The notes under the pieces are model-generated. The model was not told the origin of the DNA, did no database searches, and worked only from the letters and a program-made list of their open reading frames with translations. A stretch of DNA of 52,729 nt, taken from an uncultured Opitutaceae bacterium (GTDB lineage: Bacteria; Verrucomicrobiota; Verrucomicrobiia; Opitutales; Opitutaceae). The DNA is taken from assembly GCA_903887455.1 (NCBI GenBank), contig CAISPT010000085.1:1-52729 (forward strand). Reading direction: 5' to 3'. The position numbers and the translations under genes are program-made. This document shows, piece by piece, positions 16,573 through 22,222 of this stretch. The first letter of the stretch is position 1; the number at the start of each line of letters is the position of its first letter.

Positions 16573-17883
16573 ATGCCCCCCACCCCGAGCGCCCAGGTTC
16601 CCCGACGCCGCTGGGCCGTCGGGATCCTCCTTGGGTCGGGCGTCCTCGTGAGCTTCCTGGACCGGGTGAGCCTCTCGGCGGCCGCGCCCCAGCTCACGCG
16701 CGAGCTCGGCCTGGATCCCGCCCAGCTCGGAATCCTCTTCAGCTCGTTCCTCTGGTGCTACGCCCTGCTCCAGGTGCCCGTGGGGGTCGTCGTCGACCGG
16801 ATTGGCGTCACCCGGGTCGGCCGCTGGGGGTCGATCCTCTGGTCCCTGGCCTCGCTCGCCACCGCCTTTGCGGGAGGGTTCGGTGGGATCCTGGCGGCGC
16901 GGATCGTGCTTGGGATCGCCGAGGCTCCCAGTTTTCCCGCCGTTTCGAAGGCGACGGGACACTGGTTCCCCAGGGCGGAGCGCGCCCGGGCCACCTCGAT
17001 CTTCGACGCGGCGGCCAAGTTCTCCAACGTGATAGGGGTGCCGCTCGTGGCCTTCATCGTCGTGCGGTGCGGGTGGCGGTGGGGCTTCGGCGTCACCGCC
17101 GCGATCAGCTTCGCCTACTTCGTGGCGTTCTGCCTGCTCTACCGCGATCCGGGGGCCGATACCGCGCTCAGTGCCGAGGAGCTCGCGTACATCCGCTCCG
17201 GGGGGAGCGTCCCCGAGGGACAGTCCGGATCCGGCACAGCCGCCATGCTCGGCTACCTGCTTCGGCAGCCGAAGGTCTGGGGACTCGCGATCGGATTCGG
17301 GGCCTATGGCTACTCGTTCTACCTCTTCCTGACCTGGCTGCCGGAGTACCTGGTGAGCACCCACGGGATGACGCTCCTGAAGTCCGCGGGCTACACGGCG
17401 ACCCCGTGGGCGTTCGCGACCCTCACAGACCTCGCGGTGGGCGGCTACCTTGTGGACGCCCTGATTTCCAGGGGATGCGACGAGACCCGGGTTCGCAAGA
17501 CGGTCCTAGTGACCGGCATGCTCTTCGGTCTCGCGATCATGGGAGCCACGCGGACCTCCGACCCGTTCTGGGCGACATTCTGGATCAGCCTCTCCCTGGG
17601 CGGGCTTGCCGCCGCCGCACCCGTGGGCTGGTCGATCCCCTCCCTGATCGGGCCCAAGGGCGGCGTCGGGGCGGTCGGGGGCATCATGAACTTCGCCGTG
17701 AACGTGATGGGCATCGCCGCCCCCATCGCGACGGGCTTCATCGTGAGGACCACCCACTCATTCGCGGGCGCCTTCATGGCCGCGGCGTGCATCCTGCTGG
17801 TGGGGGCCTGCGCCTTCGCGTTCCTCCTGGGCCGTATCGAGACCCTCCCGGGTCCGGGAGCCCGCGCGGGGGGCGGGCATTGA
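16573..17883 (+). CDS. MFS transporter, ACS (anion:cation symporter) type
   Basis: A 436-residue 12-helix carrier. Helix 1 ends FLDRVSLSAAAPQLTRELGLDPAQLGILFSSF, characteristic of the hexuronate/glucarate/tartrate (ACS) group of MFS transporters. The loop 2-3 motif is VVDRIGVTRVGRWGSILWS, followed by GIAEAPSFPAVSKATGHWFPRAERARA. It is the first gene of a rightward unit with ridA, a creatininase-like pseudo-enzyme and a creatininase (34 bp, 4 bp and -4 bp spacing), so it probably imports the substrate of that pathway, most likely an organic anion or small amide. Confidence 0.85.
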   Translation: MPPTPSAQVPRRRWAVGILLGSGVLVSFLDRVSLSAAAPQLTRELGLDPAQLGILFSSFLWCYALLQVPVGVVVDRIGVTRVGRWGSILWSLASLATAFAGGFGGILAARIVLGIAEAPSFPAVSKATGHWFPRAERARATSIFDAAAKFSNVIGVPLVAFIVVRCGWRWGFGVTAAISFAYFVAFCLLYRDPGADTALSAEELAYIRSGGSVPEGQSGSGTAAMLGYLLRQPKVWGLAIGFGAYGYSFYLFLTWLPEYLVSTHGMTLLKSAGYTATPWAFATLTDLAVGGYLVDALISRGCDETRVRKTVLVTGMLFGLAIMGATRTSDPFWATFWISLSLGGLAAAAPVGWSIPSLIGPKGGVGAVGGIMNFAVNVMGIAAPIATGFIVRTTHSFAGAFMAAACILLVGACAFAFLLGRIETLPGPGARAGGGH

Positions 17884-17917: not shown

Positions 17918-18313
17918 ATGAAGAAGACCCTCATCAGCCCCCCAGGCCATCCCGCCTCGCGGGGAGCGTACAGCCCCGGACTGCTCGTGGAGCACGGCGG
18001 CGTGAGCACCCTCTATGTGACCGGGCAATTGGCCGTGGACCCGTCGGGTAACGTGGTCGCCCCGTTCGACGCCGCGGCGCAGACCGAGTATGTCTTCGGC
18101 CTGGTCGGCGCGGTCCTAAAGGCCGCGGGGATGGACTTCGCCGACGTCGTGAAAGTGACCACCTTCCTGACCCACATGCCGGACTTCGAGAAGTTCTCGC
18201 CGGTGCGCAACCGCTACTTCGCCGAGACGAAGCCTGTCAGCACGCTTCTCGAGATCAAGGGCCTGGCCAAGGAAGGCTGCTGCGTCGAGGTGGAGGTCGT
18301 GGCGGTCAAGTAA
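17918..18313 (+). CDS. RidA family protein (reactive imine/enamine deaminase)
   Basis: A 131-residue YjgF/YER057c/UK114 protein. Conserved elements are GAYSPGLLVEHGGVSTLYVTGQ, DAAAQTEYVFGLVGAVLKAAGM, DVVKVTTFLTHM, and the Arg-containing PVRNRYFAE (the Arg binds the substrate carboxylate). The C-terminal CCVEVEVVAVK is normal. RidA proteins hydrolyse reactive enamine/imine intermediates, as from dehydratases or oxidases. Placement between a transporter and creatininase-family genes suggests that it handles an unstable nitrogenous intermediate of the same pathway. Confidence 0.9.
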   Translation: MKKTLISPPGHPASRGAYSPGLLVEHGGVSTLYVTGQLAVDPSGNVVAPFDAAAQTEYVFGLVGAVLKAAGMDFADVVKVTTFLTHMPDFEKFSPVRNRYFAETKPVSTLLEIKGLAKEGCCVEVEVVAVK

Positions 18314-18317
18314 CGCT

Positions 18318-19085
18318 GTGGCCAACCCCAGCGAAGATCCCCGGTCGGTGTCCCTCTGCGTCGCGGACGACTCGACCTTTTGGCCGTGGCTGTCGTGGCC
18401 GAAGTTCGAGGCGATGGCCGACAAGCGGTCCCGCGTCGTTGTCGCGCCCATCGCCGGTCTGGCGGACTGGGGCCTCGGGCACCCGCTTGACGCGGAGGAG
18501 ACGGTGCTGCTGAACGTGCTGAAGGGCGCCAGCGAGCTGTCCCAGCCGGACCGCAAGCCGCTGGTCCTTCCGCCCCTCCGGTTTGTGTTCGGGGCCGACC
18601 CGTCTTGCGCGTTCGCCGTGGAGCCGCAGGTGGCCCACGCCCTGATTTCCGAGGTCACCGCTTCGGTCGCGGCTGCGGGCTTCAGCAAGCTTGTTCTCTT
18701 GAACGCGAGCCCTTGGAACGAGGAACTTTGCTCGGCGGTGGCCAGGGACCTGAGGGTGTCCCGGGGACTGCACCTGTTCATGGTGCACCTGAGTGCGCTC
18801 GACCTCGACTTCCACCCCCAGCGCAGCAGGAGCCGCAGGAGGCTTCAGACCCTTCTGTCCTCGCTCTACGGGAGCGCCCCCGAGGAGGCGCCCGCCGGCC
18901 TCCCCGAGGCGCCCGCCCCCTGGGGAACCGAGCCTGTGCACCCCCTTCCGGGACCCGCGGCGACGCTCGGGGAGGCCCGGGCCGAGGGGCCAGCAATCCT
19001 CGCCTCGGCCTCGGGGAGGCTGTCCAAGCTCCTCTCCGATATCCGCGATCGTCCGCCCCTGGTGGCGCAGTTCACGACGCCATGA
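18318..19085 (+). CDS. Creatininase-family homologue lacking the metal ligands
   Basis: A 255-residue protein starting at GTG 4 bp after ridA. Its layout aligns with the following creatininase: an N-terminal PWLSWPKFEAMADKRSRVVVAPIAG, a central PPLRFVFG, and a C-terminal EGPAILASASGRLSKLLSDI helix. At the metal site, however, the usual G-x-(I/L)-E-Q-H-G is replaced by AGLADWG (46-52), and N-T-H-G-G-N by NASPWN (129-134), removing Glu and both His ligands. It is therefore predicted to be inactive alone. Its TGA overlaps the next ATG (ATGA), a sign of coupled translation and possibly of a mixed complex with the active paralogue. Confidence 0.6.
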   Translation: MANPSEDPRSVSLCVADDSTFWPWLSWPKFEAMADKRSRVVVAPIAGLADWGLGHPLDAEETVLLNVLKGASELSQPDRKPLVLPPLRFVFGADPSCAFAVEPQVAHALISEVTASVAAAGFSKLVLLNASPWNEELCSAVARDLRVSRGLHLFMVHLSALDLDFHPQRSRSRRRLQTLLSSLYGSAPEEAPAGLPEAPAPWGTEPVHPLPGPAATLGEARAEGPAILASASGRLSKLLSDIRDRPPLVAQFTTP

Positions 19086-19861
19086 ACTTCCCCTCCTACC
19101 GCAGCCGGTACCTGCCGGCCATGACCCCGCGCCAGATCGCTGCCCTTCCCGACAAGGCCTGGGCTCCGGTGATCCTGGCTACCGGCGCCATCGAGCAGCA
19201 CGGCCCCCACCTGCCGGTGGCCGTGGACGCGGCCATGGGTCAGGCGTGGCTCTCGCTCGCCCTCTCGGTGCTGCCCGCCGGGGCGTCCTGCTACGTGGCG
19301 CCCCCGATCACGGTCGGCAAGAGCAACGAGCACACGGGCTTCCCCGGGACACTGATCCTTTCCCGCGACACCCTGCGGTCGCAGATCCTGGCCGTAGCCC
19401 GCCAGGCCCGCGCGTGGGGTTTCCGCTCGCTCGCCGTGATCAACACCCACGGGGGCAACATTCCGGTCGTCGTCCCGACCCTGCGGGAGATCCGCGTCCT
19501 CTTCGGCATGCGCGCCGCGCTCCTTCCCTCAAGGGGGATCGCGGAGCTCTCGGCCCAGGAATCCCGGTTCGGGATCCATGCAGGCGAGGTGGAGACCTCG
19601 TGGATGCTCGCCGCCGCCGGACCCCATGTCGACCTCTCGAAGGCGGTCTGCGAGTACCCGGCGAGGATCGAGGATCCGGGTGAGGTCAGGCCTGTGATGG
19701 CGCCGGCGCTGGAAGCATGGACCTCCAAGGACGTGTCAAAGAGCGGGACCATGGGTGACGCACCCTCAGCCACCCTAGAGAAGGGGGAGCGATGGCTGCG
19801 GGACGGCGCCGCAGCTTATGCGGCGGCGATCGCCCAGATCTGCCACGAGGGGCGGCGGTAG
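19082..19861 (+). CDS. Creatininase family amidohydrolase
   Basis: A 259-residue metal-dependent cyclic-amide hydrolase. All expected ligands are visible: GAIEQHGPHLPVAVD (Glu38, His40, Asp49), NTHGGN (His123) and HAGEVETS (Glu169). NEHTGFPGTLILS and GFRSLAVINTHGGN are typical. The family includes creatininase, MftE peptidases and FAPy/lactam hydrolases; the substrate is not determined here. The start at 19082 overlaps the stop of the preceding degenerate paralogue by 4 bp, and the operon also contains RidA and a transporter. Confidence 0.85.
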   Translation: MNFPSYRSRYLPAMTPRQIAALPDKAWAPVILATGAIEQHGPHLPVAVDAAMGQAWLSLALSVLPAGASCYVAPPITVGKSNEHTGFPGTLILSRDTLRSQILAVARQARAWGFRSLAVINTHGGNIPVVVPTLREIRVLFGMRAALLPSRGIAELSAQESRFGIHAGEVETSWMLAAAGPHVDLSKAVCEYPARIEDPGEVRPVMAPALEAWTSKDVSKSGTMGDAPSATLEKGERWLRDGAAAYAAAIAQICHEGRR

Positions 19862-19935: not shown

Positions 19936-21435
19936 ATGACCCTCCGCAAGGCATCCTTTCCCACGGCCTGCGCCGTAGCAGCCCTCCTGGCACAGGCCTG
20001 TGTCGAGTACCTCCCCGAGAACTCGGGCCCGCAGGCCCCGCCGCCCCAGCCGCCCGCCTACGCGCCCCCGAGCCAGCCGGAGTACGCCCCGCCGGCCGAG
20101 CCGGGCCCACCCCCGACCCCGCCCCGGCAGCCGCCGGCCCCCGCGGCCAACAACGCCCTCCGCTCGCTTCTGGCCCCGATCGCGCTCTACCCCGACCCGC
20201 TGATCGCGCTCATCCTGCCGGCCTCCGCGGCGCCGAACGACCTCTCGGCGGCCGCCTCGTACCTTGTGCAGTACGGCGATGCGACCCAGATCGACAGGCA
20301 GCCCTGGGACCCCAGCGTCCGCGCGCTCGCCCACTACCCCACGCTCGTGTCGTGGATGGTCGAGAACATGGCGTGGACCCAGGCCCTCGGATCGGCGTTC
20401 GTGGCCGCACCCGGCGACGTGATGGACGCCGTTCAGGAGCTCAGGGCCGAGGCGCTCCGGGCCGGCACCCTGACCTCGGGTGCGCAGCAGCGGGTCGTCA
20501 CCGACGAGGAGGGAGAGATCGACATCCTCCCGTCCCAGCCCGACTCGATCTACATCCCTCAGTACGACCCCCAGGTCGTCTACACCGAGGACCAGTACTA
20601 CGGGTACGGAGGGCCGTTCATCAACTACGGGGACCCATTCCCAATGGGCTTCTGGCTGAGCTACAGCTTTGACTGGCGACGCCACCACGTTTGGGAGGGC
20701 GACCGGGGCGACTGGCGCGAACACCAGGGATGGAACAAGCCCCGCTTCGACGGTGACCACTCCCCTGCGGGGGCCAAGGCATGGGGCCCGCGCGACTACT
20801 CCCGCAACAATGGGAGCCACCAGGGGCCTCCCCCCGGTAAGCCGGTGCCCGCGCCCCGCCTGATGCCCGGGACGCCGAATCCGCCCCCAAGCCACTACCG
20901 CAGGCCGAACCCTCAGGTGAACCCCCAGCCCGGACCGCGAACCGAACCTCCCTCGAGCAGCCAGCAACAGTACAGGCCCCAGTCCGGACCGCGCACTGAT
21001 CCTCGTTCGGGTGGCCAGCCGCAGGACAGGCCCCAGAGGGCCCAGCCGCCCGCGCCGTCCGCTCCCGCCCGCACCGCGCCCGCCGCGCCGGTCCCCGCGG
21101 AGCGTCCGCGCCTCAATCCTGCCCCCGCGTCCCCGGCGCAGCAGCCGGCTTCGCCTTCTGGCGCCGGACGCGAGGGCCGAAACCCCGTCCAAGGCGCGCC
21201 GGGCTTCCGCACGGCTCCCGAGAGGCCCACGACCGGGAGCCAGGGAGTTCAGGCGCCCCCCAACGCGGGGGGACGCAATCCTGCGGGAAATCCCGGCGGG
21301 AGGGTCCCGGCGGGCAATCCGGGTGGACCGGCCCCTCGCGCCCCGTCCACTCCCCAGCCATCGCAGCCCGCACAGGCGGCGCCCCAGGCCCCCGCGCAGT
21401 CGGGTGACCCAAGGAGCAACCAGCCCCAGCGATAG
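19936..21435 (+). CDS. DUF3300 domain protein with proline-rich tail
   Basis: A 499-residue exported protein. The start at 19936 gives a signal-like N-terminus with a lipobox-like LLAQAC (cysteine near residue 22), so it may be a lipoprotein. A Pro-rich stretch (~30-70) precedes the DUF3300 domain: LLAPIALYPDPLIALILPAS, QPWDPSVRALAHYPTLVSWM and IPQYDPQVVY are its signatures. The last 200 residues are Pro/Gln/Arg-rich low complexity, including two copies of an 18-residue GPRT(E/D)P...RPQ-type unit. The domain's function is unknown. Confidence 0.8.
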   Translation: MTLRKASFPTACAVAALLAQACVEYLPENSGPQAPPPQPPAYAPPSQPEYAPPAEPGPPPTPPRQPPAPAANNALRSLLAPIALYPDPLIALILPASAAPNDLSAAASYLVQYGDATQIDRQPWDPSVRALAHYPTLVSWMVENMAWTQALGSAFVAAPGDVMDAVQELRAEALRAGTLTSGAQQRVVTDEEGEIDILPSQPDSIYIPQYDPQVVYTEDQYYGYGGPFINYGDPFPMGFWLSYSFDWRRHHVWEGDRGDWREHQGWNKPRFDGDHSPAGAKAWGPRDYSRNNGSHQGPPPGKPVPAPRLMPGTPNPPPSHYRRPNPQVNPQPGPRTEPPSSSQQQYRPQSGPRTDPRSGGQPQDRPQRAQPPAPSAPARTAPAAPVPAERPRLNPAPASPAQQPASPSGAGREGRNPVQGAPGFRTAPERPTTGSQGVQAPPNAGGRNPAGNPGGRVPAGNPGGPAPRAPSTPQPSQPAQAAPQAPAQSGDPRSNQPQR

Positions 21436-21436
21436 C

Positions 21437-22222
21437 ATGGAACTGCCGATCTACTGGGTCGACGCGTTCACGGAGCGGGTGTTCGCGGGAAACCCCGCGG
21501 CGGTCGTCCCTCTGGAGTCGTGGCCCGGCGACCCGCTCCTGCAGCGGATCGCCAACGAGAACGGACTCTCCGAGACGGCCTTCTTCGTGCGCACGGGCCC
21601 GGCCAGGGCAAGCCTTCGCTGGTTCACCCCGGCCGTGGAGGTCGACCTCTGCGGGCACGCAACCCTCGCGTCGGCGCACGTGCTCTTCAACGAGCTGGGC
21701 CAGGTGGAGCAGCCCTTCACCTTCGACACCCGCTCCGGCCCGCTGCAGGTGACGACCGTCGGCCCCATGATCGAGCTCGATTTCCCATCCCGCCCCGCCC
21801 TGCCCGCGGAAGCCCCGGAGGCGCTCGCGCGGGGGCTGGGCCAGCAGCCCGCGGAGGTGAGGCGGAGCGAGCGGATGTGGCTGTGCGTCTTCGCCACGGC
21901 CGGCGAGGTGACGGCGATCTCGCCCGACTTCTCCGCGCTCGGGACCCTCGTGCCGGGGAGGATCATCGCCACCGCGCCCGGGGAGGACTGCGACTTCGTC
22001 TCCAGGTCCTTCGCGCCCGACGCCGGGGTCCCCGAGGACCCGGTCACTGGCTCGGCCCACAGCACGCTCGTGCCCTATTGGTCCGCGCGCCTTGGCAAGA
22101 ACGCGCTCCACGCCCGGCAGGTCTCTCGCCGGGGCGGGGAACTCTGGTGCGAGATGCGGGGCGACCGGGTGTCGATCGCGGGCCGCGGCGTGGCCTACCT
22201 GAGGGGCTCGATCCGCGTCTAG
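21437..22222 (+). CDS. PhzF family isomerase/epimerase-like protein
   Basis: A 261-residue protein of the PhzF/diaminopimelate-epimerase fold. The motifs are WVDAFTERVFAGNPAAVVPLESW, NGLSETAFF (catalytic Glu at about 46), DLCGHATLASAHVLF and DPVTGSAHSTLVPYW. It starts 1 bp after the DUF3300 stop. PhzF in phenazine synthesis isomerises DHHA, but most homologues, including those in non-phenazine bacteria, have unknown substrates, and no phz genes are here. It converges on the cyclase gene with an 19-bp gap. Confidence 0.88.
   Translation: MELPIYWVDAFTERVFAGNPAAVVPLESWPGDPLLQRIANENGLSETAFFVRTGPARASLRWFTPAVEVDLCGHATLASAHVLFNELGQVEQPFTFDTRSGPLQVTTVGPMIELDFPSRPALPAEAPEALARGLGQQPAEVRRSERMWLCVFATAGEVTAISPDFSALGTLVPGRIIATAPGEDCDFVSRSFAPDAGVPEDPVTGSAHSTLVPYWSARLGKNALHARQVSRRGGELWCEMRGDRVSIAGRGVAYLRGSIRV

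Follow-up and report, generated by a model that had tools for sequence, protein, structure and literature searches.

A Catalytically Dead Creatininase Paralogue as the Probable Partner Subunit of an Active Creatininase-Family Hydrolase in Opitutaceae

Gene A of the window (by which we mean the whole 52,729-nucleotide stretch of uncultured Opitutaceae DNA analyzed here) encodes a creatininase-fold protein that has lost its metal site. From sequence and conservation, we consider it very probable that this inactive protein serves the active creatininase-family protein encoded by the overlapping gene B as a dedicated partner subunit. We think it likely that catalytically dead A and its active sister B are two subunits of one enzyme and form an obligate pseudoenzyme-enzyme heteromer. 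The pairing is more general than an initial annotation, made from this DNA alone, could know: it occurs across Opitutales and in a more distant Verrucomicrobiota family. That annotation's suggestion that A is a pseudoenzyme subunit is strongly supported by near-universal adjacency, translational coupling, gene fusions, mirrored trees, and purifying selection.

Gene organization in the window

Four genes on the same strand encode a major facilitator superfamily (MFS) transporter, a Rid-family protein, A, and B. The first two are separated by 34 nt, the Rid gene and A by 4 nt, and A and B overlap at ATGA (Table 1). The initial placement of A, B, and their overlap was confirmed. A longer frame in the list of open reading frames (18605-19861) was rejected as a gene: it is only a mechanical extension, and homologues place the B start at 19082. 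A DUF3300 gene and then a PhzF-like gene follow B (19936-22222). The DUF3300 gene is similarly placed in several relatives of the genus, and this gene order probably reflects conserved synteny rather than function.

Table 1. Features of the A-B region, in window coordinates
Feature	Coordinates	Strand	Basis or remarks
MFS transporter, anion:cation symporter (ACS, D-galactonate) type; heads the local unit	16573..17883	+	PF07690, 163 bits
Rid-superfamily protein	17918..18313	+	PF01042, 88 bits
Gene A, putative pseudo-creatininase subunit, 255 aa, GTG start	18318..19085	+	PF02633, fold match, ligand loss
A loop 1, once metal-binding, AGLADWGLGHPLDAEE, residues 46-61	18453..18500	+	Glu to Ala49, His to Trp51; D58, E60, and E61 conserved
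A loop NASPWN (residues 129-134), formerly NTHGGN	18702..18719	+	His to Ser131
ATGA, B start over A stop, translational coupling	19082..19085	+	
Gene B, intact creatininase-family metal hydrolase (predicted), 259 aa, ATG start	19082..19861	+	PF02633, metal-ligand motifs
B metal-binding motif E38-Q-H40 ... D49	19193..19228	+	Family motif
B His123, in NTHGGN	19448..19450	+	
B Glu171, in HAGEVET	19592..19594	+	

B is an intact member of its family, scoring 189.9 bits against PF02633 (cutoff, 31.3). It carries E38, H40, D49, H123, and E171, all five of which are invariant among B homologues; we take these to be the metal ligands from knowledge of the family, not from a structure of B. B nevertheless falls beneath each equivalog cutoff that we tried: it scores 70.3 bits against creatininase proper (TIGR04448; cutoff, 235), 102.5 bits against MftE (TIGR03964; cutoff, 172), 22.3 bits against ArfB (NF033501; cutoff, 180), and 41.9 bits against IolN (NF041098; cutoff, 245).

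A retains the creatininase fold without the metal site

A scores 40.7 bits against the Pfam Creatininase family (PF02633; residues 25-153), above the cutoff of 31.3. BLASTP comparison of A with B was not significant (E = 0.046), and a PDB sequence search with A gave no match at E = 10. Profile-profile comparison of 75 A and 72 B sequences aligned 223 columns, nearly the whole length, with 98.8% probability (E = 1e-16). The AlphaFold2 model of A, based on 30 sequences (pLDDT, 86; pTM, 0.86), matched creatininases best among solved structures (3no4, 3a6j, and 3lub; Z = 18.4; rmsd, 3.4 to 3.5 over 212 to 224 residues), and the next unrelated fold had a Z of 8.1. The PF02633 score, the profile-profile alignment, and the fold match rule out a chance likeness of A to creatininases, as does the conservation of the A-B arrangement in many genomes.

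At the ligand positions of B, A has A49, W51, E60 (D58 with a two-residue gap), S131, and Ser/Arg. Glu and both His ligands are missing, and an acidic residue still lies near the Asp position. The initial annotation had credited B with the full metal set and described A as aligning throughout but lacking Glu and both His; the profile-profile comparison agrees. Its proviso was that the ligands might be kept elsewhere in A, which the profile-profile comparison and the alignments of A homologues rule out. Since the metal ligands Glu, His, Asp, His, and Glu are not retained, A belongs to PF02633 by descent and not as an active family enzyme. A domains fused to B (see below) often keep a His as the second ligand residue, yet they too have lost the Glu and the His of NTHGGN. 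A also lacks the S81-x-E83-H84 loop, the second that is conserved in B.

The most conserved portion of A is the loops that once bound metal: mean information is 3.23 bits in the three family metal-site loops versus 2.26 elsewhere, and 2 of 5,000 block shuffles gave a value as high. The invariant set in these loops (G47, D50, G52, D58, E60, and E61; P85-P86-x-R88-F89; and S131-P132-W133-N134-x-E136) is new to A. Conservation of the loops with a new set of residues suggests that they have been re-used, either as an interface or as a ligand pocket.

A and B are paired, coupled, or fused across genomes

A search for conserved adjacency of the two genes, proposed in the initial annotation, found the neighborhood conserved. 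A is present in 81 of 200 sampled Opitutaceae genomes (threshold for A, E = 1e-3), and B lies within 1.5 kb of 91 of the 96 confident A matches. Of the other five, none of which has a separate adjoining B, four are cut off by the end of a contig and the fifth is an A-B fusion. Conversely, 91 of 98 B matches adjoin A, the remainder being contig ends, truncated fragments, and one outgroup creatininase of the family that has no A (L103 of genome G048). A B fragment without A lies at L123 (G164:C3). Wherever contig extent permitted, a motif-less A was followed by a motif-bearing B: split and fused A alike lack the catalytic motifs, and the B copies retain them.

The 75 non-redundant loci divide into 32 with an ATGA overlap, 15 with a nearby start, 21 fused, 3 arranged otherwise, and 4 with no B on the contig; the overlap thus accounts for 32 of the 50 split pairs. 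At the 21 fused loci, A and B form a single polypeptide, always with A first. Profile searches at the phylum and order levels extended the range of the pair to further families of Opitutales and to a single family more distant within Verrucomicrobiota (L115-L119, L131-L137, and L139); A is reduced to 175 to 200 aa at some of the loci found in this way. Short A proteins (175 to 230 aa), with the third metal region missing or degraded, are still paired with B. Two pairs are present in 21 sampled genomes; the genome of the window has its second pair on contig C131. No A-B pair was seen outside Verrucomicrobiota in the collections reached, which do not exclude one; a plasmid search with A led to six creatininase-annotated places in Alphaproteobacteria, and the two that we looked at are single canonical creatininases with all motifs.

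Individual loci vary in form. The isolate IMCC26134 (CP011265.1; L043, G075) appears to hold the pair in two forms, one split and one an A-B fusion. In "Candidatus Synoicihabitans palmerolidicus" (G173), B of one pair (L060/L090) is broken by several stops, and most of the A reading frame is still uninterrupted; this genome also has an A-B fusion with an open frame. A single metagenome-assembled genome (MAG) has an A broken by a frameshift or stop after ∼172 codons next to an intact B (L051/L016), a break that may be an assembly error. Fused proteins at L079, L080, L084, and L097 reach 690 to 930 aa; the first two have ∼200 additional residues between the domains, and L084 has a long N-terminal extension.

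Shared ancestry and selection

We built a maximum-likelihood tree of 72 domains, including 33 A and 33 B, with ordinary creatininases as outgroups. All A domains form one clade (support, 100/100), and all B domains form another (100/99) inside ordinary creatininases. Fused copies cluster in each half (89/85 for A and 99/92 for B), consistent with a single fusion event. Branching is largely mirrored between A and B, with many recurring partners (for example, L001 and L032, L039 and L047, L058 and L131, L066 and L069, L081 and L083, and L117 and L119). Distances among A correlate with those among B (r = 0.85; 0 of 2,000 permutations as high), although vertical descent alone would also score high. 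Both genes are under purifying selection (dN/dS of A, ∼0.11 to 0.24), A evolves faster than B, and an alignment of 30 A sequences has 25 invariant columns. The best reading of these sequence data is that A and B stem from one ancient duplication and have been inherited as a unit.

How A and B might work together

A is an inactive paralogue co-conserved with an active partner, as expected of a pseudoenzyme-enzyme heteromer. In such a heteromer, A-B would probably replace one half of each dimer of the usual creatininase oligomer. B would hold the metal site and hydrolyze a C-N bond (amide, lactam, or formamide), and A would be required for assembly, activation, or substrate gating, with its repurposed loops either touching B or forming a pocket for a ligand. 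A model of a joined A-B chain was of low confidence (pTM, 0.47); the chain was artificial, a translation carried across the two stop codons that separate the in-frame A and B of L047, and only 27 rows, with repeated joined-chain copies, entered its alignment. Co-inheritance and coupling also fit two proteins that act in sequence, and the B fragment and the outgroup creatininase that have no A likewise count against the heteromer reading. More tentatively, A may be a ligand-sensing allosteric subunit: where metal was once bound, an invariant pocket for a small molecule would have arisen, through which B is turned on or off. If so, a regulated class of heteromeric creatininase-fold hydrolases would act in an undescribed Verrucomicrobiota route of N-heterocycle breakdown.

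A pair of this kind could also have arisen without benefit, if the gene for a homo-oligomer was duplicated and the heteromer became fixed by a neutral ratchet, leaving A as structural filler with no regulatory role. Mutational bias alone can turn homomers into heteromers after duplication (PMC11066126), and A does evolve faster than B; filler, however, needs no loop-focused conservation unless the loops form the contact to B, and we find this account somewhat unlikely. The same loops, which are the best conserved in A and have their own invariant residues, might instead mark changed chemistry: a new site for catalysis or binding would be built from D58, E60, E61, R88, S131, W133, and E136, and the two proteins would carry out successive steps (catalysis or sensing) as a bifunctional pair. 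Fusions are compatible with bifunctional enzymes also, but A has no recognizable metal site or catalytic triad, and the degraded or absent third metal region of the short, B-paired A proteins further argues against this reading, which we regard as unlikely.

We give almost no credence to the idea that A is a functionless, decaying duplicate akin to a pseudogene. Its catalytic residues are lost and one MAG carries the broken copy described above, but the low dN/dS, its retention in many genera and several families, its fusions to B, and the invariant columns all speak against decay; conservation (invariant columns, dN/dS, and the tree) rules out A as debris. It is also very improbable that the unit is a creatinine-degrading operon with B as a true creatininase. 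The Pfam family is shared and solved creatininases are among the best PDB matches, but the 70 bits of B against the creatininase equivalog compare with a cutoff of 235, and neither creatinase nor sarcosine oxidase was seen among annotated neighbors.

Relation to known systems

A and B share the fold of the creatininase family PF02633 (Pseudomonas putida creatininase [1j2t and 1q3k], MftE, ArfB, IolN, and BrbF), whose metal-ligand motifs are retained in B. To our knowledge, the characterized members are each encoded by a single gene and work without an inactive paralogue; the present system differs in that an inactive sister is always paired with or fused to B, as well as in the position of B under all equivalog cutoffs tested. 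We found no description of a heteromeric or pseudoenzyme creatininase in the literature searched, which omits most subscription journals. In trypanosomatids, S-adenosylmethionine decarboxylase (AdoMetDC) with its prozyme, and deoxyhypusine synthase with a dead paralogue, a co-conserved dead paralogue makes a functional heteromer (PMC5201418 and PMC3663545). These are the closest functional analogues of A-B, in manner of working only: their folds are unrelated, and they are eukaryotic and encoded by separate genes, whereas A-B is bacterial and coupled or fused, and activation of B by A is conjectural. BrbF, a bacterial riboflavin formamidase, is a creatininase-family enzyme that hydrolyzes a formamide and is not a creatininase (PMC9478397), so substrates differ within the family. 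Unlike A-B, it is a single gene of a riboflavin pathway with no pseudo-partner reported; no riboflavin genes were seen among annotated A-B neighbors.

If the obligate-heteromer reading is correct, the creatininase family includes a bacterial complex in which enzyme and pseudoenzyme are obligate partners, and living lineages offer coupled, fused, long, and short versions of it. Because the same pair is available as two genes or as a natural fusion, one could then test directly why dead paralogues come to be indispensable, and IMCC26134, apparently with both forms, would suit as a test organism. In that case, too, a B-type protein annotated as "creatininase" and expressed alone may seem inactive for want of its partner A.

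Neighboring genes and possible substrates

The conserved core is A-B, and the transporter-Rid unit is a local arrangement. The initial annotation was right that ACS-type MFS and Rid genes lie upstream on the same strand, but the MFS-Rid-A-B order is restricted to the genus of the window and close relatives (MFS orthologues are 5' of Rid-A-B at L032, L033, L035, and L051). The transporter scores 265 bits against TIGR00893, under its cutoff of 395. Similarly, the "RidA" of that annotation does belong to the Rid superfamily, but in the Rid proteins of these operons the catalytic Arg of the PARS motif, which marks true RidA deaminases, is replaced by Ser; E. coli RidA, with its PARS-motif Arg, was the reference row in this alignment. 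Without that Arg, imine deamination by the Rid protein is not assured. The outgroup creatininase without A (L103) also has a Rid gene nearby, suggesting that the Rid link predates the pair or is independent of it.

Other lineages have a cytosine-deaminase-family hydrolase (NF005759, 459 to 482 bits; cutoff, 403), DUF2165, Rid, A, and B; in a further layout, the genes after A-B encode an acetamidase/formamidase, a Rid protein of a second type, an amidase, and an FAA hydrolase; and some have no such partners. Some pairs have purine-type permeases (PF00860), NMT1/ABC transporters, or FAD-binding oxidases nearby, and fused copies mostly lack such partners. What these neighbors have in common is the breaking of C-N bonds in small nitrogen-containing molecules, which suggests catabolism of N-heterocycles or amides; as operon partners vary by lineage, the substrate may vary too. 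It is plausible that the unit takes up and hydrolyzes a cyclic compound or an amide. With lower confidence, the neighboring transporter would import a small N-heterocycle or amide resembling pyrimidine, hydantoin, or creatinine as the substrate, and the Rid protein would deal with an unstable intermediate. Some A-B loci resemble Rut, the pyrimidine utilization operon, in placing a Rid protein and a nucleobase-type permease beside N-heterocycle hydrolases, but here the hydrolase is the creatininase pair, and RutA and RutB were not found among annotated A-B neighbors. RutC is a Rid protein (PMC8113886).

The second pair of the window genome (L085, G000:C131, 989-4659) has a TIR-domain gene (PF13676) no more than 27 nt behind it, with another gene next in line. 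Gene order is the same in a second genome of the genus (L054, 4950-9502), where the gene after TIR encodes a saccharopine-dehydrogenase-like protein. PADLOC matched the TIR gene after the second pair to TIR proteins of defense systems and matched no model to A or B. On a roseobacter plasmid, a canonical creatininase gene without a partner (L129, NZ_CP022417.1, 203394-204194) shares an operon with genes for an ABC transporter, an amidohydrolase, and an FAD-binding oxidoreductase; these resemble the neighbors of some A-B pairs, and this operon may hint at the A-B substrate class.
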